Shown here piece after piece: positions 53,290 to 63,483 of a DNA stretch of 64,000 nucleotides. The translations under genes were made by a program, and so were the position numbers. The notes under the pieces are model-generated. The model ran no database searches, was not told where the DNA came from, and was given only the letters and a program-made list of their open reading frames with translations. Location of the stretch: assembly GCA_903824785.1 (NCBI GenBank), contig CAIJYD010000078.1:101365-165364 (forward strand). The letters run 5' to 3'. Origin of the DNA: an uncultured Bacteroidota bacterium (GTDB lineage Bacteria; Bacteroidota; Bacteroidia; Bacteroidales; VadinHA17). Every line of letters starts with the position of its first letter. Positions within the stretch are counted from its first letter, which is position 1.

Positions 53290-53334
53290 TTATATTCAAT
53301 TAAAATTTATAACTTATTGATGCTGACACCTTAA

Positions 53335-53421
53335 TTTATCAGACTAACGGAGATTCCGGGTACTATTGCAATGGCAAAACTGTTCCTGGATAAATTTGGC
53401 TATCTCGGCCTTTCTAAATAA
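53335..53421 (+). pseudogene. Possible C-terminal gene remnant
   Basis: The frame is open for 28 codons after a stop at 53332 and ends with TAA at 53419-53421, and it reads a plausible helix-rich end (AMAKLFLDKFGYLGLSK). There is no start codon that would make it a gene of normal size. The parent family is not recognised, and chance cannot be excluded. Confidence 0.2.
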
Positions 53422-53558
53422 TTTTTCAAATTTACAATATTTTTAAACAACCCGGGGGTGTCATTGCAAAAGTTACAAATGTAGCGTTTAAGGGTAGATA
53501 ACCACAAACAGCAGGCTTTAGAAATACAATGATTTATGTGAACCTCTTGTGAGAAGGA

Positions 53559-53703
53559 TTAAGTTTTAACAGGTACAGGCATTGATAATTGCGCTTTATG
53601 AACCTCTAATAAAAGTTTTAAAGCATCAATTAAATTGATTTTAAGTTCGTCTATGGTTTTGCCTTGCGAAATAGCTGCAGTTAGTTATTACAAAATTTCT
53701 CAT
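53559..53703 (-). pseudogene. HicB-like antitoxin remnant
   Basis: The minus strand from ATG 53703 reads MRNFVIT, an HicB-like beginning, then shifts frame; the second frame reads AISQGKTIDELKINLIDALK and ends at TAA (53559-53561). HicB antitoxins have just this QGKTIEEA-type helix. The middle seems deleted and a stop interrupts the frame upstream, so it is not functional. No hicA is visible beside it. Confidence 0.45.
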
Positions 53704-53704
53704 G

Positions 53705-53902
53705 TTATATGCCATTTTTAAAAAATAGAATTAGTGAAATATTTGTTGCCTCTCCGATTGAGACAAGCAGAGACAAGAAGTGCCTTGTCGCTGCCCAAGT
53801 TTGTGTGCCAATTTTTATTGAACTATTGCTTCCAATATTCCCATAAGAATTTAGCAGTAAAAATATTCCGATTATAGCGATAACCGTTTTAAATATCCTC
53901 AT
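53705..53902 (-). pseudogene. Truncated secreted FISUMP-like fragment
   Basis: The 65-codon frame begins with a good signal peptide (MRIFKTVIAIIGIFLLLNS), then SIKIGTQTWA, which matches the start of Fibrobacter-succinogenes-major-paralogous (FISUMP) repeats. The following residues do not continue the domain. It looks like the left part of a longer secreted protein gene joined by deletion to unrelated sequence. Confidence 0.4.
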
Positions 53903-53981
53903 TCAGTAACGGTTATCCTCGTCATTTATCTTAAAGAGATCCTGTTTCCGTTGTCCCCTGTTTGACAAAAAACCTTCGAAA

Positions 53982-56951
53982 TCAGGGTTTCAGGATAACT
54001 CCTCTGTGATTTTTTCCGTCAATCAGAATCTCGAGCGGGTTGGAAAATCTGACATGCCTGATATAACTATCTTCATAAATGACATCAAGTTTATTCAGAT
54101 ATTCCACATCGTAATAGCCCTCATTAATATATGGATTAATGGTAAAATAGCCAACACGGAATGAGGTCAGATTCTGAAAGAAATGAGTACCCTGACTGGG
54201 GTCAATCCTATAGTTTTTCAGCCCCGATTCAATTATGATCCTTGCTGCCGAAATCTGGGGCCACTTAACCGGAATACCAAGCCAGGGATCAGTTGATCCC
54301 CATCTTCCCGGTCCGACAAGGACATATCCTTTTGCCTGCTTTACAAACAGTGAGTTAATCCGGTCAATTTCAATTGCAACATTTTTATTATTTGCAGCAT
54401 TGAAAGATTCCGGCTTTACGTAAACAAGATCATGAATACCCTTAAAAATGCCATTCCCCAGTGCCGATTCAGAATAGATGATGGTCTCTTCGGTTTTAAT
54501 ATGATCGAGATTAATATGGTGGGTCTCCTCAGTATGGACGATCGGTCTTATCTGCAGGAAGTTGAAGATCTTTGGTGTCCCGGCAGGTGTTTCAAGGTTT
54601 GCTGCAAATTCAATTTCAATAGGATTATTCATCTCCTGCTGGCCAATTTCGAGAAGTGTACTTAAAATGTCAGCAAGAGGGAATATTTTGTGCTGAAGTA
54701 TATTTGAGAAGGTAATTACACGCTTGCCTGAATGTATAATGCCATCTCGAAGGACGTTGTTAGTCCTGTCATATGTGGAAGCAACATATTTCATTGCAAC
54801 CTCGTTGTTCATATCCTTTATATCGATCTTCATAATATTCACACCATCATCAGTGGAAGGGATAAAACTGTTGATATTGAGGTCGAGTGCACAAAACTCT
54901 TTTTGCGTATCCCTTAATGCTGCTTCGGGTGATGAAAGCTGTAGAATCTTTTTTGGATGCTTAGGTGAAAATCTGAGCGACAAGCCCCCTTCAACAATCA
55001 TTTTCCCGAGACCGAAAGCAATATTCACGATGCCGTCCTCAGCTTTTTCCGAACCAATCGGATAATAATTTATCGATCGCGCCACACCTGATAAGGTAGG
55101 ATAAAATATCTCTCCGTGCTGGTTGCCGCAAACCTCCTGAAGGATAATCCCCATCTTCTCTTCATCAATAACATTTGCTGTTGCTGTCATGTATGCTTTA
55201 CTCGACTTATAGTAGACTGAAGCATAGACCTCTTTTATTGCGTCAGATAACATCTTAACCATCAGCTTATTATCGGGCAGCCTGGGGATCATATATGTTG
55301 AATAGATCCCTGCAAAAGGCTGATAGTGTGAATCTTCAAGTTTACTGGAAGAACGGACAGCTATCGGAACATTCTTTGAAACAGCCAGAAATGCATAAAA
55401 GTCCTGATATACATGTCCGGGAAGCTCAGCATTTACAAACCGGTTAAGGATCTCATCGTCGGAAAGATCAGACAGTGCAATGGAATAGAGATTGTTCTGA
55501 TCCATGAACTCATCAAAAATGTCGGTACTTAAAACTACTGTCCGCGGAATAGTAATGAGAACATCGGGATATTTATTAAACAGCTTATTATTTTTTATTA
55601 TCCTGTTAATAAAAGCAAGTCCTCTTGCCTTACCACCGATTGACCCCTCTCCGATACGCGAAAAGATCTGGTATTCATCAAAACTTGATTTGTCGAATTT
55701 TGCAATAATCCCCCTACCCTTTCCCAGCCGGAAGCTGGAAATGGCAACATACAGGAACTTCCGCATCTCGTCCATACTTTCAAAATCTTCCCTGTTGATA
55801 TATTTAAACATCTGGGCCACAGGAAAAAGGGCTCTTGCATTCAACCATTTGGAAAAATGGTTCCGTGAGGCGTGGTATGCAAGAGAATTGTCGGGGATAG
55901 TGAGTAATTTTTGTTGCAGGCTCTGAAGGTCAGTTGCAATAGCAATTGGTTCAAGAGTAACCGGGTTTCTAAAAACAAACGGACCAAAGGCAAGATTCTG
56001 GATAATAAAATTCCGTAACTCAAGAGAGAGCGATTTGGAATATTTATTTATGAACCCTGCTCCAAGCTCTTCTGCCACCTTTTTATGTGTTAAACTTGAA
56101 GATTGTATCAGGAAAGGGACTTTGTCGTCATCAGCCATAACCACTTTGCACAACTCAATCCCTGCATTTTCATCCGTTATATTATCTTTCTTATAACTTA
56201 TATCAGATATAACTCCAAGAACATTGTACTTATATTTCTGATAAAGCACAAGGGCATCGTTGAAATTATTTGCAAGAAGAATCTTGGGACGTCCCCTCAT
56301 CTTTAGCATTCTCTGATGTTCGTTGAGTGCTTCCCGCTGAAAATCGAGTGATTGAAGAAGTACTATTCTGTAAATATTCGGGAGGTAGGAAGAGATGTAT
56401 CTTATAGAGTTTTCAACGAGGATGATTGCCTGAACACCAATATGTTCTATGTCATATTCAGCATTCATCTTATCTTCAATCAGTTTTATTATGGCCAGGA
56501 TAAGCGAGGCATCACCAAGCCAGCAAAAAACGTAATCGATAGCGCTAAGATCTTCACCTTCAAGTCGCAGCGATACTTCCCTTGAGAAATATGTAAGAAC
56601 AACAATGGGGATATTTTCGTACTTCGCCTTAATCTTTTTTGCCAGAGCAAAAACGTCAGTACCTTTAAGGCTCAGCATAGAGATTACAAGATCTATGTTT
56701 CCGTCCTGCAATATTCTGAACGCATCTTCCGCATTATCAGTCTGAACAAATGTTGGCGGGTACCTGAGGTTCAGCGAAGCATATTCATTAAAGATCTGTT
56801 CATCAATCCTGCCATCTTCCTCAAGCATATAATTATCATAATTACTGCATATTACAAGTACCCTGTGTATTCTCTTCTGCATTAGCAGATCAAAAGAGGT
56901 ATCGGTAAAATCGTATTTCTGAAGATCAAGTATTCCGTCAATAATGGACAT
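53982..56951 (-). CDS. Large two-receiver/ATP-grasp protein without GAF (PEP synthase-like N-terminal domain)
   Basis: The 989-residue protein has a receiver-like domain at about 29-160 whose phosphosite aspartate is replaced by M92, a second receiver (about 174-320) that keeps D250 and K303, a helical region, then an ATP-grasp domain like that of PEP synthase and pyruvate phosphate dikinase (about 430-870). Visible ATP-site pieces are GGKARGLAF (K441), VRSSSKLED (R533) and the late LQIRP. The C-terminus has a conserved GPGRWGSTDPWLGIPVKWP block. The phospho-histidine and PEP-binding domains are absent. It follows its larger paralogue by 12 bases. Role unknown. Confidence 0.75.
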   Translation of the reverse strand: MSIIDGILDLQKYDFTDTSFDLLMQKRIHRVLVICSNYDNYMLEEDGRIDEQIFNEYASLNLRYPPTFVQTDNAEDAFRILQDGNIDLVISMLSLKGTDVFALAKKIKAKYENIPIVVLTYFSREVSLRLEGEDLSAIDYVFCWLGDASLILAIIKLIEDKMNAEYDIEHIGVQAIILVENSIRYISSYLPNIYRIVLLQSLDFQREALNEHQRMLKMRGRPKILLANNFNDALVLYQKYKYNVLGVISDISYKKDNITDENAGIELCKVVMADDDKVPFLIQSSSLTHKKVAEELGAGFINKYSKSLSLELRNFIIQNLAFGPFVFRNPVTLEPIAIATDLQSLQQKLLTIPDNSLAYHASRNHFSKWLNARALFPVAQMFKYINREDFESMDEMRKFLYVAISSFRLGKGRGIIAKFDKSSFDEYQIFSRIGEGSIGGKARGLAFINRIIKNNKLFNKYPDVLITIPRTVVLSTDIFDEFMDQNNLYSIALSDLSDDEILNRFVNAELPGHVYQDFYAFLAVSKNVPIAVRSSSKLEDSHYQPFAGIYSTYMIPRLPDNKLMVKMLSDAIKEVYASVYYKSSKAYMTATANVIDEEKMGIILQEVCGNQHGEIFYPTLSGVARSINYYPIGSEKAEDGIVNIAFGLGKMIVEGGLSLRFSPKHPKKILQLSSPEAALRDTQKEFCALDLNINSFIPSTDDGVNIMKIDIKDMNNEVAMKYVASTYDRTNNVLRDGIIHSGKRVITFSNILQHKIFPLADILSTLLEIGQQEMNNPIEIEFAANLETPAGTPKIFNFLQIRPIVHTEETHHINLDHIKTEETIIYSESALGNGIFKGIHDLVYVKPESFNAANNKNVAIEIDRINSLFVKQAKGYVLVGPGRWGSTDPWLGIPVKWPQISAARIIIESGLKNYRIDPSQGTHFFQNLTSFRVGYFTINPYINEGYYDVEYLNKLDVIYEDSYIRHVRFSNPLEILIDGKNHRGVILKP

Positions 56952-56963
56952 AAATTCTGAATT

Positions 56964-59900
56964 TTAATGAGTCATTGAGATAACAGCCATTCCCTTTTTA
57001 CCATCCATCCGTATTAGAAGCGGCTTATCAAACCTTACATGCCTGAAGAATTTCCCCTTTTCAATAACCTTCTGTTTATTAAGTTTTTCCCATTCAATTA
57101 AACCGTCATTAAACTCCTGATTTATTGAAAAATATCCGACATTCATTGAGGTTACGTTATGAAAAAAATGAGATCCAAGTGAGGCATCGAGGTGAAAATC
57201 AGGCAAGCTAACCTCGACAATAACTTTTGCGTTTGATATTTGTGGCCAAACGACAGGTATCCCAAGGAACCTGTCTTTTGTTCCCCACCTGCCGGGCCCG
57301 AGAAGGACATACCGGCGGTTTTCCTTCATCATTTTTTCGTTTATCAAATCTATTTCGTATGCCATCTCATTGGTAGACATGTTATTGAACTTTTCAGGAT
57401 CGATATATATCACATCTGTAATATCGTTAATAACACCGTTGCCCATGCTTTTTTTTGTGACAAGAATCAGCTCTTCATTATAAATACTTTCAGGATCAAC
57501 GGAATAACCACCACCAGTGCCAACGAGTGGTTTTATCTGAAGGAGATAAAATGATGTATTTCCCGACAGATCCTTATTCAGGTCAACTGCAAATTCAATC
57601 TCAACCGGTGTTCCAAAAGCTTCAGTAACTACTTCGAGAACTACCTTTAAGGTCGATGCAAGAGGGGCATAATCATATTTAAGGATATCAGCAAAACTAA
57701 TTACGCGGGGACCAATTGAATCCAGGCCCGGAACTAAAATATCATTATCGGCGTTCCATACAGAAGCAGAGTGTTTCAGTGTGCCATGTTTTTCGGCCTG
57801 ACTGATATCAAGAACAACCAGCCCGGCATTTTCCCCATCAAGAAGATTCAGCTCTTTTTTTGCCATATCAACGGCATAGAAACGGGTCTGGGAATTTTTA
57901 TAAATGTCTTTATGTGAGATAATATCCAGAGCCGGATAGGCGGGTGAAAATCTGAAAGCTCTCTCTCCTTCAACAACATACTGACCAAGCCCGACTGCTA
58001 TAACTGAGAATCCATCCTGAGGAGTCATATGGGCAACCGGATAAAAATTAAAAGACTGCGCAGTTCCGCTGATATGTGGGTAGAAGGCATCTTCAAACCT
58101 GTTTCCCACAACTTCCTGGATTACTACAGCCATCTTTTCCTGCTCCACTTTATAGCTGATAGCTTCGAAATAGGTACGGGCATTTCTGGAATATATTGAA
58201 GAAAAAACAAGTTTGATTGCATCCGATAACTGCTTCAGCCTGATCTCCGGATCGGAGTTATTATTGGGAAGAAGATATGTTCCGAAAATTCCTGAAAAGG
58301 GCTGGCTCATTGAGTCTTCGAACAGACTTGATGATCGGACGGCAAGTGGCTTGCTTATGAGCCGGATAAATATCTTAAGTTCTTTTTCAAGGGTGTAGCT
58401 AAGACTTCCTTCTAGGAAGAGTTTTTTAAGAATATCAAAATCTTTTTCCTCTTTTACCCTGTTCCACAGATGATTTCGTTCCATGAACATATCAAATTCA
58501 TCTGTACCAATAATTGCCGTTACAGGAGTTTTAATATTTATACCCGGCAAAAGGCGTCCTAATTCGAAGCTATAGATAAGGGTATTGATGAATGCCAGTC
58601 CACGACCTTTTCCACCAAGAGAGCCACCCGCAAGACTTACAACATTTGTTTCATCAATAACTGCAGATTCCTCAAAATTAACCACCTTACCTTTATTCAT
58701 TTCCCTTCGTCTCCTGCGGATTATGTCAATTAGGTACTCACGGAGCTCTTTAAGACTATTGAAATCAGATACTTTTACAGGATTTATCAACTTGGCAATT
58801 TTCACCTCTCCTCTTGCCATCAGCCATAATGAAAAATGGTTTTTCATGGAATGATAAGCAAGAGAATCCTCGGGAACAGTCTGAAGGTAGGCTTCGAACT
58901 CCTTCATTGATTTAGCCACTGCAATCTGACGGCCTTTTGTGTCTCTGTAAACAAAGTGGCCAAAGCCCAGATAATAGTTTATAAATGATTTAAGATCCTG
59001 AAGAAGGCTTTCGGAGTTTTTGTTAATAAAATTTGATTTCAGTATATGTGCATATCTTGCGTTTTCGGGATCTGCCGACTGGAGCACGGAAGGAAGATTT
59101 GGAAAGTCCATTTTTACATGCTTTATAAGATCAAATCCTGCTGTATCGTGTAAAACTCCGTTCCGGGGAAACCTCATATCAGAAATCACGCATAAGAGAC
59201 TATCCTTGTGCTTATTATAAATCGTTATCGAATCTTCGTAGTTTGAAGCGAGCAGGATCTTCGGTCTGGCTCTCAATTTCAGTACTTTATACAATTCATC
59301 GGTAGAGACATCCTCAATCAGGTTTTTTGTCTGTTCCATTATTAGAGTATAAAGCATAGGCAGATAACTTGAATAATATTCTGCCGAATCCTCAACGATA
59401 AGGATCACTCTTGTAAGTCCTTTTTTTGTATCATTATCAACATTTACCCTGTCTTCCAGAAGCTTGACCATTGCAAAGAAGACTTTCGATTCGCCTGTCC
59501 ATACAAAATAGTTATCAAAAGGAATCCCGAGTGTTTTCTGCTTTCCAACGAAAGGGACATCACCTGGGTTGTTCAGAAGAAGGAATGTAGGAAGATAGGG
59601 GTATTTGTCTTTTATTTTTTTACACAGGATCATAGGACTCTCTTTATCGACCCCGATCATAATAATAATCATATCGTAGTGCCTGGCCTTCAGTCGACTG
59701 AATGCCTCATCTTCACCTGAAACACCAGTAACCCTTGGAATGGATGTAAGGCTCATCTGGTAATATTCTCCAAGCATATGGTCAGAAAATCTTCCTTCTC
59801 CTTCAATTGAGTAGGCATCATAAAGGTTTGCCACGAGGAGAATCTCTTTGACTTTAAATGGCATCAGATCGTGAAAAACATCCCTCTCTGCATTGTGGCG

Positions 59901-60410
59901 ATCGAGAAATTTCTGAAGAAGCTTTCTTGAGGATACATCTTTAATATCAATATTATCGTCGGGAGGGATCTGTGCCAGCCCTATTATGTCTCTGGCTTTG
60001 TAGCTGTTAATATATCCTGTAAGCAGGCTGGCAATATTCAGGATCAGATCTCTTTCCTCTTTCAGGAAGGGGCCTTCATTTTCGGTATTGAATTCCGTAG
60101 TATAAAAAATCTCTATTGATCCTTTTTCACCATCTATGGTCAGAAAATCCTGACGCATCCTCCAGTTGGTTTCCTGAAAATCGACTGATTCAAACTCGTT
60201 ACCCATGAATCGGATACGAGCAGCAGTATATTCAGGATACTGCCAGGCGGCGGGCAATAGAAGTACAATTTGCTGGAGCGATTCTTCAACAGGCTTGAAT
60301 TCTTTCAGGATTGATGTAGTCTGGTTTATACAAGCCAGCTCCTTCAACCTCTCCTGCTGATCGTGGAGTAACCGGTTGTACTCAATTTTATTATGTTTCA
60401 ATTCACCCAT
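56964..60410 (-). CDS. Giant GAF/two-receiver/ATP-grasp protein (PEP synthase-like N-terminal domain)
   Basis: The 1148-residue protein carries a GAF-like domain (about 25-140), a receiver-like domain with M251 in place of the phosphosite aspartate (about 187-320), a second receiver with E340/D341, D411, S445 and K464 that looks competent (about 334-480), a helical linker and an ATP-grasp domain (about 590-965) with GGKGRGLAF (K601), VRSSSLFED (R692) and LQIKPL. The end has the same GPGRWG block as the next gene. No His-domain or PEP barrel follows. It precedes the 989-residue paralogue by 12 bases. Function unknown; annotation as PEP synthase would be wrong. Confidence 0.75.
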   Translation of the reverse strand: MGELKHNKIEYNRLLHDQQERLKELACINQTTSILKEFKPVEESLQQIVLLLPAAWQYPEYTAARIRFMGNEFESVDFQETNWRMRQDFLTIDGEKGSIEIFYTTEFNTENEGPFLKEERDLILNIASLLTGYINSYKARDIIGLAQIPPDDNIDIKDVSSRKLLQKFLDRHNAERDVFHDLMPFKVKEILLVANLYDAYSIEGEGRFSDHMLGEYYQMSLTSIPRVTGVSGEDEAFSRLKARHYDMIIIMIGVDKESPMILCKKIKDKYPYLPTFLLLNNPGDVPFVGKQKTLGIPFDNYFVWTGESKVFFAMVKLLEDRVNVDNDTKKGLTRVILIVEDSAEYYSSYLPMLYTLIMEQTKNLIEDVSTDELYKVLKLRARPKILLASNYEDSITIYNKHKDSLLCVISDMRFPRNGVLHDTAGFDLIKHVKMDFPNLPSVLQSADPENARYAHILKSNFINKNSESLLQDLKSFINYYLGFGHFVYRDTKGRQIAVAKSMKEFEAYLQTVPEDSLAYHSMKNHFSLWLMARGEVKIAKLINPVKVSDFNSLKELREYLIDIIRRRRREMNKGKVVNFEESAVIDETNVVSLAGGSLGGKGRGLAFINTLIYSFELGRLLPGINIKTPVTAIIGTDEFDMFMERNHLWNRVKEEKDFDILKKLFLEGSLSYTLEKELKIFIRLISKPLAVRSSSLFEDSMSQPFSGIFGTYLLPNNNSDPEIRLKQLSDAIKLVFSSIYSRNARTYFEAISYKVEQEKMAVVIQEVVGNRFEDAFYPHISGTAQSFNFYPVAHMTPQDGFSVIAVGLGQYVVEGERAFRFSPAYPALDIISHKDIYKNSQTRFYAVDMAKKELNLLDGENAGLVVLDISQAEKHGTLKHSASVWNADNDILVPGLDSIGPRVISFADILKYDYAPLASTLKVVLEVVTEAFGTPVEIEFAVDLNKDLSGNTSFYLLQIKPLVGTGGGYSVDPESIYNEELILVTKKSMGNGVINDITDVIYIDPEKFNNMSTNEMAYEIDLINEKMMKENRRYVLLGPGRWGTKDRFLGIPVVWPQISNAKVIVEVSLPDFHLDASLGSHFFHNVTSMNVGYFSINQEFNDGLIEWEKLNKQKVIEKGKFFRHVRFDKPLLIRMDGKKGMAVISMTH

Positions 60411-60515: not shown

Positions 60516-60547
60516 CAAAAATCCCTCTTCCAGTCAATGAAAGAGGG
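60516..60547 (-). terminator. Rho-independent terminator of korAB
   Basis: On the minus strand CCCTCTT pairs with AAGAGGG across an 11-base loop, and the sequence ATTTTTG follows the stem (A run at 60517-60521 on the plus strand). It ends the leftward korA-korB transcript and separates it from the giant-protein genes. Confidence 0.75.
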
Positions 60548-60614
60548 AAATGGCAATGTGCCGGATATAAGAAAAATGTAATCTGAAAACCGGGGAAATC
60601 GTCTCAGTTTTGCA

Positions 60615-61637
60615 CTATTCAACTTTCCAGGTTGACCCGCTCATAAGCAGATCGTCCATGCACTTGATTTTTGCAGTACTTTGTATCGTGCTAATCTGAT
60701 CAGCAACAGCCCTATCATACGTCGGAGCCGACACCTCTCTGATAACACCCAGAGCAACAGGATATTCCGGATATTTCATATTGGCCAGCATATAATGAAT
60801 GCCTGGATTTGGCTCTAAAGCATCATGTATGAGAATGTCTTTTTCTGCAATGCCGTTTTCACCCAGTTTAACAACTTTGAGTTTCAGCCCTTCGAGGATC
60901 AGACCCTTGTCATTTCCGGTGCCAAAGATCATTGGCTGACCATGCTTAAGGATTATTGTTCTGTCGTCTCTTACATCTTTACCGGCAACGGTATCGTGTA
61001 TCCCGTCGTTAAAAATAACGCAATTCTGAAGTACCTCAATAACAGATGTTCCTTTATGGCCCGCTGCTTCAATATAGATCTGAGTTGAAAGGGAAACATT
61101 TGTGTCGAGAGTACGGGCAAAGAATTTGCCTTTTGCACCAATTACAAGTTCGCCTACGGAGAAAGGCTCTTCAAGCGTTCCGAAAGGTGAAGTCTTGGTT
61201 ACCAGTCCTTTTGTTGAAGTAGGAGAATACTGTCCTTTGGTGAGACCGTAAATCTCATTGTTAAACAGAATTATATTAATATCAATGTTACGACGTATTG
61301 CATGAATGAAATGATTCCCTCCGATTGCCAGGGCATCACCATCTCCTGTGATCTGCCAAACCGACAGCTCGGGATTTGCGGTTTTTACCCCGGAGGCAAT
61401 TGCTGAAGCTCGGCCATGAATGCTATGAAAACCGTATGTATCCATATAATAAGGGAATCTGGAAGAGCACCCGATTCCGGAGATAAATGCGAATTTCTCT
61501 TTAGGTATACCCAGCTCTGCCAAAGCTCTCTGAACAGAACTTAAAACTGCATGGTCGCCGCAACCCGGACACCATCTGACTTCCTGATCGCTTTTAAAAT
61601 CTTTCGCAGTATATTTAGTTACAAGTGTTTCAGCCAT
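60615..61637 (-). CDS. korB: 2-oxoacid:ferredoxin oxidoreductase, beta subunit
   Basis: KorB carries thiamine diphosphate and one iron-sulfur cluster. The 340-residue protein has WCPGCGDHAVL (cluster/TPP contact) near the start, GIGCSSRFPYY, and the TPP motif GDGDALAIGGNHFIHA. It partners with KorA to make acetyl- or succinyl-CoA while reducing ferredoxin. It starts one base after the korA stop on the same strand. Confidence 0.93.
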   Translation of the reverse strand: MAETLVTKYTAKDFKSDQEVRWCPGCGDHAVLSSVQRALAELGIPKEKFAFISGIGCSSRFPYYMDTYGFHSIHGRASAIASGVKTANPELSVWQITGDGDALAIGGNHFIHAIRRNIDINIILFNNEIYGLTKGQYSPTSTKGLVTKTSPFGTLEEPFSVGELVIGAKGKFFARTLDTNVSLSTQIYIEAAGHKGTSVIEVLQNCVIFNDGIHDTVAGKDVRDDRTIILKHGQPMIFGTGNDKGLILEGLKLKVVKLGENGIAEKDILIHDALEPNPGIHYMLANMKYPEYPVALGVIREVSAPTYDRAVADQISTIQSTAKIKCMDDLLMSGSTWKVE

Positions 61638-61638
61638 T

Positions 61639-63483
61639 TTATTTATCCTCCAGCATTTTAATGCATTTCTCTTTTATATCATTAATAGTAAAGGGGAGAC
61701 CCTGAACTTTATTCAACTGTTCATAAGTGAACTCCTGATGCTTAATGCGCAGGTAGTCAGCAAACTGTCCAAGATTCAATTCACAAACCAAGATCTTCTT
61801 ATACTTTCCAAACACATCCCTGACATTTTTCGGCAGAGGATTAATATAGTTAAAGTTAACAAGACTTACTTTATGTCCTTCGGCCTGCAGTTCGCGTACA
61901 GCGGTAATAAGATAACCATATGATCCGCCCCAGCCCACAACAAGGACATCACCTGAAGTGGCTCCATAGGGTACCAGGTCGGGGATTTCATTAACAACCC
62001 TTTCAATTTTCTCTGCCCTAAGATTAACCATTAATTCATGATTTTCAGGCACATATGAAACTGTTCCTTTCACTGTTTTCTCAAGTCCTCCTATTCTGTG
62101 TTCCAGACCGGGAGTACCCGGAACAGCCCAGGAACGTGCAAGATTTACATTATCGCGCTTATATGGAAGAAAAGGAATCTCATTCTTGTCGGCAAAAGGC
62201 GGATTTATTTCCGGGAGGTCTTTCATCTCAGGTATTCTCCATGGTTCAGTACCATTTGCAAGGTAGCTGTCAGAGAGGAGGAGTACCGGAGTCATATGTT
62301 CAAGGGCAATCCTTGCAGCTTCGTATGCAAAGCGGAAACAGTCTGATGGAGTACTTGATGCTATAACAACCACAGGACACTCACCGTTACGTCCATAAAG
62401 GGCCTGCATAAGGTCGGCCTGTTCTGTTTTGGTAGGCAGACCTGTTGAGGGGCCACCTCTCTGAACATTTACGATAACTATTGGAAGTTCAGCCATAACT
62501 GCCAGACCGATAGCTTCAGATTTCAATGCCAGGCCGGGGCCGGATGTTGATGTTATTGCAAGTCTTCCTGCAAAGCTGGAGCCAAGAGCTGTACATATTC
62601 CGGCTATCTCATCTTCAGCCTGAAAACTTATTGCTCCGAGGTCTTTACGGGCAGCAAGTTCCTCAAGGATCCCTGTTGCAGGTGTGATAGGATATGAACC
62701 GATAAAGAGTTTAATCCCGGCTTTTTCAGCTGCTGCCAGAAAACCCCAGGCAGTTGCTGAATTTCCGTTAATGTTCCGGTAGGTTCCCTTTGCAATCGGG
62801 GCCGGAAGTATTTTATAGACCGGCCTTAAAGCCTCTATTGTTTCTGCATAGTAGTATCCGGCTCGCAGTACAACTTTATTGGCATCTGCCATACCCGGTT
62901 TATTATGAAACTTCTTATCAAAGTATTTCTCGGTATAGTCAAGTTTACGGTCGAATAGCCAGTAGACCATTCCCAGAGCAAACATATTTCTTGTTCTCAG
63001 AACAGATTTAGGGTCGAGACCATAGTCCTTAAGGGCTTCTTTAACCATTGCAGATATTGGAGCAGCAATAATATTGTAGCTGTCGAGCTTCTCTTCAATG
63101 ATCGGATGGCTCTCATAGCCGGCTTTCTCGATATTTTTTTCAGTAAAATTACCCTCGTCGTAAATAATTGTTCCCCCCGGCTTTATCCATTTGGCATTTG
63201 CTTTTATTGCAGCCGGATTCATTGCCACGAGAACATCAGAAAAATCACCCGGGGTATTTATTTCTGAATGACCGAGATGAACCTGAAAACCTGAAACACC
63301 GCCGACAGTTCCCTGAGGGGCACGGATCTCGGCAGGATAATCGGGAAATGTTGACAAGTCATTACCGAATAAAGCGGCAGTATCGGAAAACAGTGTCCCT
63401 GTAAGCTGCATTCCATCACCTGAATCGCCCGAAAAACGAATGACTACTTCTTCCCTTTCGATAACCTCTGATTTTTTAGCCAT
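61639..63483 (-). CDS. korA: 2-oxoacid:ferredoxin oxidoreductase, alpha subunit with fused gamma domain
   Basis: The 614-residue protein joins the gamma domain (about 1-195, with FSGDSGDGMQLTG near the start) and the alpha domain (about 220-610, with GNSATAWGFLAAAEKAG and SYPITPATGILEEL). This two-subunit form is the 2-oxoglutarate- or pyruvate-type enzyme of many anaerobes; the substrate cannot be fixed from sequence. A candidate -7 element is at 63545-63552. Confidence 0.93.
   Translation of the reverse strand: MAKKSEVIEREEVVIRFSGDSGDGMQLTGTLFSDTAALFGNDLSTFPDYPAEIRAPQGTVGGVSGFQVHLGHSEINTPGDFSDVLVAMNPAAIKANAKWIKPGGTIIYDEGNFTEKNIEKAGYESHPIIEEKLDSYNIIAAPISAMVKEALKDYGLDPKSVLRTRNMFALGMVYWLFDRKLDYTEKYFDKKFHNKPGMADANKVVLRAGYYYAETIEALRPVYKILPAPIAKGTYRNINGNSATAWGFLAAAEKAGIKLFIGSYPITPATGILEELAARKDLGAISFQAEDEIAGICTALGSSFAGRLAITSTSGPGLALKSEAIGLAVMAELPIVIVNVQRGGPSTGLPTKTEQADLMQALYGRNGECPVVVIASSTPSDCFRFAYEAARIALEHMTPVLLLSDSYLANGTEPWRIPEMKDLPEINPPFADKNEIPFLPYKRDNVNLARSWAVPGTPGLEHRIGGLEKTVKGTVSYVPENHELMVNLRAEKIERVVNEIPDLVPYGATSGDVLVVGWGGSYGYLITAVRELQAEGHKVSLVNFNYINPLPKNVRDVFGKYKKILVCELNLGQFADYLRIKHQEFTYEQLNKVQGLPFTINDIKEKCIKMLEDK

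Follow-up and report, generated by a model that had tools for sequence, protein, structure and literature searches.

We analysed two tandem genes at positions 53982-60410 of a 64,000-nucleotide stretch of DNA (the window) from an uncultured Bacteroidota bacterium of the VadinHA17 lineage (assembly GCA_903824785.1, contig CAIJYD010000078.1). They encode protein A (989 amino acids, aa) and protein B (1148 aa) on the minus strand, 12 bp apart, and each protein combines two receiver folds, a PPDK_N ATP-grasp domain and a C-terminal GPGRWG domain common to both, while B carries an extra GAF-like fold at its N-terminus (Table 1). A first-pass annotation had described the pair as adjacent paralogues of this domain make-up, which was borne out by the gene calls, the Pfam scan and the predicted folds. 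The usual genomic partner of the A family across the phylum is glutamate dehydrogenase (GDH), as the linkage of the genes shows, and the A/B family is probably an unrecognised control on the fixation of ammonia into glutamate in Bacteroidota. We give about even chances to the proposal that A and B are histidine-kinase-gated phosphotransferases, similar to phosphoenolpyruvate (PEP) synthase, which control GDH by a chemistry and on a target that we infer. The component folds are already known; the combination of domains, the partnership with GDH and the matching of paralogues look new as far as our searches show.

The gene neighbourhoods of the family were surveyed across the phylum, a step proposed in the first-pass annotation. 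A core-profile search of 345 Bacteroidota genomes gave matches in 74, and 51 of these, including the source genome, were strong (E <1e-150). The source genome apart, 50 strong genomes remained, and 49 of these supplied 60 regions, none longer than 20 kb. GDH was present in 52/60 regions and lay within 1 kb of 59 of the 70 A-type or mini genes (48/58 A-type and 11/12 mini). These linkages were spread over 42/49 genomes, 37/42 genera and 11/12 family labels, and for 46 of the 59 linked genes GDH was upstream on the same strand. Phylum-wide, the ferredoxin enzyme suspected before is therefore not the main partner. Among the neighbouring GDHs of at least 400 aa, both scored motifs, which we take to be the catalytic ones, were kept in 53/57, so the partner looks like a working GDH. 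In the one annotated record examined, that of Parabacteroides distasonis, A and gdhA are transcribed divergently and A bears only the name 'PEP/pyruvate-binding domain-containing protein'. GDH was lacking in 26/345 genomes, none of them among the 74 with a match. Shared ancestry makes this co-occurrence weak support, since all 20 of the GDH-less genomes listed belong to one family. The genome survey of the family covered Bacteroidota genomes, and 3 of 72,556 records in a plasmid collection matched, all of them from Bacteroidota.

Two other kinds of neighbour were seen. After GDH, the commonest cluster of outside neighbours was an aminotransferase-like gene (assigned by eye; about 400 aa), which lies within 1 kb of 8 family genes, at L109, L119, L131, L133, L135, L138, L143 and L145. 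At two loci (L081:13248-16039 and L076:1763-4557), A is followed by GDH and then by an ammonium-transporter-like gene, a further tie to ammonia assimilation.

The distances among the GDHs and among the A proteins were correlated (r 0.89 for 45 upstream same-strand pairs from 32 genomes, uncorrected for ancestry). Thirteen genomes have two pairs, and of their 78 comparisons 49 agreed with the pairing, 3 disagreed and 26 were dropped as near-ties. Since GDH paralogues keep matched partners, protein-protein specificity is favoured over a shared metabolite. This bears on the idea that A is a metabolic enzyme which uses glutamate or 2-oxoglutarate as a small-molecule acceptor for phosphoryl transfer or ligation, with the receivers only regulating it. 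The models for PigC and rifampin phosphotransferase (RPH) match A partially, RPH is its top fold match, these known relatives act on small molecules, and 2-oxoglutarate could be shared by GDH and the 2-oxoacid:ferredoxin oxidoreductase. However, separately matched GDH partners within one genome would be needless for a shared metabolite and A lacks room for an RPH-type substrate domain, so that we regard a metabolic enzyme as unlikely.

The typical cassettes were GDH-A-PAS histidine kinase-response regulator-GDH-A-GDH (the kinase was checked in L103, the regulator assigned by eye) and GDH-mini-long. The minis (about 580 aa) consist of the ATP-grasp and C-terminal domains only, and for 11 of the 12 a GDH gene is found upstream within 1 kb. 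This core therefore looks like the working unit. The 'long' proteins have a C-terminal nucleotidyltransferase domain (PF01909, over the cut-off in the two checked), and their genes, which were counted apart, had GDH within 1 kb in 0/12. Two 'long' genes (L149:10730-13918 and L120:5884-9066, about 1061 aa) overlap by a few bases with a receiver-less relative behind a GDH gene. Their products carry a B-like N-terminus (by eye), PPDK_N, a GPGRWGSRGD variant and the nucleotidyltransferase domain, and they are possibly a second covalent modifier of GDH.

The match to PPDK_N (PF01326) was far over the cut-off in both proteins (E 7.2e-37 in A and 9.3e-37 in B). Residues were counted in 177 full-length proteins, selected without a motif rule and not deduplicated, which were split by identity into 124 A-type and 53 B-type; the other 46 of the 223 cluster members were set aside, 12 for lying at a contig edge, 15 as 'long' and 19 as short or mini. 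The ATP-site residues K441, R533, E781 and Q800 were present in 177/177, and the last position (R802 in A) was Arg in 124/124 A-type and Lys in 53/53 B-type proteins (K960 in B, codon at window positions 57531-57533). Their counterparts in pyruvate phosphate dikinase (PPDK) are presumably K22, R92, E323, Q335 and R337. Judged by these residues, A holds the full ATP-site set of PEP synthase and PPDK, and B a partial one. The ATP-site motifs reported in the first-pass annotation were thus intact. The change from Arg to Lys suggests that B works by another chemistry or has a regulatory role. Together with the cognate GDH-A pairing, this loss of a catalytic Arg speaks for an allosteric subunit or scaffold of GDH, in which the state of nucleotide and receiver would be read out by binding to GDH, with no phosphoryl transfer. 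We consider that quite unlikely, since the other four ATP-site residues (177/177) and the C-terminal His (176/177) are conserved beyond the needs of pure binding.

No PEP/pyruvate TIM barrel was matched by Pfam down to E 10, and the chains of A and B stop after the C-terminal domain, as expected from the earlier claim that these proteins are not complete PEP synthases. With no barrel and no sequence-detectable PEP-utilizers domain (PF00391), a complete PEP synthase or PPDK is ruled out. Among the Pfam matches listed to E 10, neither PEP-utilizers nor GAF was found in A or B, and the receiver (Response_reg) was over the cut-off in A and weak in B. The NCBIfam models of PEP synthase, PigC, RedH and RPH matched partially and far below the cut-off. 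A search of PDB sequences with A gave receivers and a weak match to the ATP domain of RPH; the search with B gave nothing useful. The sole other PPDK_N gene of the source genome is a 932-aa frame on contig C2 that carries PF00391.

The residues E180, D250, S/T284 and K303 of receiver 2 were each kept in 176/177 proteins, and the second acidic position is D or N, with N in the A of the window. In receiver 1, none of the 177 has Asp in the phospho-Asp column, where M, T, W or A stands instead. The acceptor site of response regulators is therefore predicted to be present in receiver 2 and lost from receiver 1.

The model of A (418-989) aligned structurally to PEP synthase 2ols (4-466) and PPDK 1dik (3-510), and such alignments begin in the ATP-grasp domain, continue across the C-terminal one and reach the end of the His domain in PEP synthase, PPDK and RPH (2ols, 1dik, 5hv3). 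H923 was found in 176/177 full-length proteins, the one exception being L011, whose interrupted frame has a gap there; R883, W884 and D888 were likewise each found in 176/177. A second His, H966, was present in 116/124 A-type and 52/53 B-type proteins. Among 162 deduplicated C-terminal domains, which were picked by the GRWG motif only and include the receiver-less and 'long' relatives, the Asp following GRWG and S-x-G-x-H-F-F (including H923) were kept in 162/162; the protein sets counted overlap in part and are not fully independent. Three things led us to retain H923 as the candidate phospho-His: the structural alignments, the succession of secondary-structure elements and this conservation. 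The models suggest a diverged swivel-like domain with a candidate phospho-His. The earlier statement that a phospho-histidine is missing is accordingly doubtful: the structural alignments reach the His-domain end and the His is conserved, but sequence profiles see no relation.

Given the receiver 2 site, the histidine-kinase genes in some cassettes, the intact ATP engine and the conserved His, we propose the following mechanism. A histidine kinase would phosphorylate receiver 2 at D250 of A or D411 of B, and this would open or close the ATP-grasp engine. The engine may then move a phosphoryl group from ATP to H923 (H1081 in B) of the swivel domain, and the phospho-His would pass it on, most likely to GDH. 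GDH activity would in this way be set by the nitrogen or energy state, and the control may be of either sign. The title of Baggio and Morrison (1996), as given in the reference list of PMC4539542, fits this proposal: it concerns Bacteroides thetaiotaomicron and names trans-acting gene(s), located downstream of gdhA, that affect GDH activity, and the A family is a candidate for these gene(s). In two genomes of one genus label (L091 and L092), whose A is 80% identical to that of Phocaeicola, A comes immediately after a GDH gene and is convergent with it; L158, from a third genome of this label, has no GDH near A. The description as signalling phosphotransferases, given in the first-pass annotation, is still the best reading of the anatomy; the usual neighbour across the phylum is GDH and not the ferredoxin enzyme. 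A fuller version of the proposal, which we put forward tentatively and hold to be possible rather than probable, is that two-component input at receiver 2 switches a relay from ATP through phospho-His to GDH, with a modifier of its own for each GDH paralogue. The family would then be the missing control factor of GDH in Bacteroidota, and in the lineage of the window it would have been reassigned to the 2-oxoacid:ferredoxin branch.

Several observations weigh against control of GDH by this relay. Family f2, which is Bacteroidaceae-like by identity to Phocaeicola, has the gene in 53/61 genomes and 28/30 genera, but together with one Phocaeicola record it showed GDH within 1 kb in only 9/24 loci (3/3 in one set and 6/21 in another, one of the six being the Phocaeicola massiliensis record). 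A Prevotella record had no GDH nearby, and under family label f48 GDH was within 1 kb in 0/2 (L126 in G306 and L128 in G271, each with an A-type gene). In the source genome itself, A and B have no GDH nearby; both of its GDH genes lie on a different contig. The GDH-A pairing may also reflect vertical inheritance of a two-gene unit. For the C-terminal domain, the rmsd (root-mean-square deviation) was 4.4-6.4 over the full match, the aligner gives only the first and last aligned residues and itself flags the C-terminal part as barely tested, and the H923 loop (918-923) has a pLDDT (predicted local distance difference test score) below 50 in the model of A. With hhalign, C-terminal sequences chosen by the GRWG motif (162 in a first comparison, 116 in a second) were set against PF00391-type swivel segments from PPDK, PEP synthase and PtsI (32 in the first, 68 in the second); no match was found (probability 0.1-0.3 out of 100), and a forced alignment of low confidence set GPGRWG, not H923, opposite the phospho-His motif.

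In the lineage of the window, the neighbours are different. The pair adjoins KorAB, a 2-oxoacid:ferredoxin oxidoreductase whose profile matches do not single out one 2-oxoacid as substrate, and the target there may be KorAB, GDH or both. KorAB was within 2 kb in 51 of 77 GTDB loci collected by a search with A; full-length B was present in 49/77, and 44 of those 49 have KorAB. GDH was found by tblastn in 12 other loci of the 77, none with KorAB nearby. The adjacency was seen in a single lineage only and lies inside a longer conserved synteny block, for which reason KorAB was dropped as the main partner and is kept as a rival. The rival, the first-pass annotation's own version, holds that A and B are signalling phosphotransferases for KorAB; besides these counts, it can draw on L069 (6552-14000 onward), where KorAB is on the opposite side and strand of the B-A pair, unlike elsewhere, and still adjacent. 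Yet distant members have GDH instead, and with the single syntenic lineage this makes KorAB a very unlikely target of the family. The tie to the ferredoxin enzyme thus holds in the window lineage, where the synteny block is conserved as well, and gives way to GDH phylum-wide.

A terminator-like hairpin separates korB from B, which suggests that B and A are transcribed as a unit of their own. Such hairpins occur across the region at the shuffled rate (8 found, mean 8.5), and this one is intergenic and has the longest stem. Four GTDB loci have a TPR/PAS histidine kinase immediately before A (L056 was checked). A FabD-like gene (by eye) was seen in 51 loci, mostly just after A in those printed, and about 690 bp of the window (53290-53981) are without it. 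The source genome has A and B as its only family members. On its contig C50 (L155:7631-11703), two GDH genes about 1.4 kb apart flank a DprA-like frame (by eye), and none of the family is nearby.

B formed its own clade in the tree (support 100), separate from the A-type, mini and 'long' proteins, and among the genomes sampled it was seen only in the wider lineage of the window. B may be a specialised copy with a sensor added and the ATP site altered.

Table 1. Features of the A/B locus and its neighbours in window coordinates.
Feature	Residues	Position	Strand	Basis or remark
Protein A	989 aa	53982..56951	-	receiver 1 - receiver 2 - helical linker - ATP-grasp - C-terminal swivel-like domain
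A receiver 1	27-144	56520..56873	-	Pfam Response_reg, fold; M at the phospho-Asp position
A receiver 2	172-325	55977..56438	-	acceptor-site residues E180, D250, S284, K303
A D250, predicted phospho-acceptor Asp of receiver 2		56202..56204	-	Asp in 123/124 A-type, 53/53 B-type
A ATP-grasp (PPDK_N)	419-813	54513..55697	-	Pfam, fold; K441, R533, E781, Q800, R802
A C-terminal GPGRWG domain, swivel-like	814-989	53985..54512	-	structural alignment to 2ols, 1dik
A H923, candidate phospho-His		54183..54185	-	His of S-x-G-[TS]-H-F-F; conservation
Protein B	1148 aa	56964..60410	-	GAF-like - receiver 1 - receiver 2 - DUF5752 - ATP-grasp - C-terminal swivel-like domain
B N-terminal GAF-like sensor domain	13-149	59964..60374	-	GAF-like fold; no Pfam GAF match to E 10
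B receiver 1	186-331	59418..59855	-	without phospho-Asp
B receiver 2	332-487	58950..59417	-	acceptor D411
B DUF5752 region	499-574	58689..58916	-	Pfam E 1.4e-5, over cut-off
B ATP-grasp (PPDK_N)		57507..58676	-	Pfam, fold; last ATP-site Arg replaced by Lys (K960)
B C-terminal swivel-like domain with H1081		56967..57506	-	model 587-1148 aligned to 2ols 9-467
Terminator-like hairpin		60522..60548	-	11 pairs and T run; between korB and B
KorB-like, 2-oxoacid:ferredoxin oxidoreductase beta subunit		60615..61637	-	upstream neighbour of B
KorA-like, 2-oxoacid:acceptor oxidoreductase alpha subunit		61639..63483	-	TIGR03710 over cut-off

GDH is one entry of ammonia into glutamate in Bacteroidota, a dominant gut phylum, and its reversible inactivation in B. 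fragilis was reportedly described in 1987. The literature searched held no explanation for how GDH activity is set in Bacteroidota, and no description of the A/B family or of its link to GDH. A family that is widespread, often beside gdh, in matched pairs and equipped with a receiver could turn the genetic observation of 1996 into a testable protein. If the proposal is true, phosphotransferases of the PEP synthase type extend from small acceptors to protein signalling.

Compared with known systems, A and B differ from PEP synthase (PpsA) and PPDK in that these have the PEP/pyruvate TIM barrel, and in A and B two receivers stand in front and the C-terminal domain is not recognised by PF00391. 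RPH has a large substrate domain between its ATP-grasp and His domains. Compared with the Listeria enzyme, A and B lack this domain, since the ATP-grasp ends at about 813 and the C-terminal domain starts at once; the NCBIfam RPH match on A covers residues 492-656 only, and RPH is without receivers. With two-component response regulators, A and B share the acceptor-site residues of receiver 2 and, in some cassettes, histidine-kinase genes. However, the output of response regulators is DNA binding or a cyclase, whereas in A and B it is an ATP-grasp, phosphotransferase-like core, and receiver 1 is Asp-less. GlnE and GlnD exert covalent control of nitrogen assimilation. The likeness to them is that A and B would be a covalent control of ammonia assimilation, and the 'long' relatives carry a nucleotidyltransferase domain; the difference is that A and B have an ATP-grasp engine and that their apparent target is GDH, not glutamine synthetase or PII.

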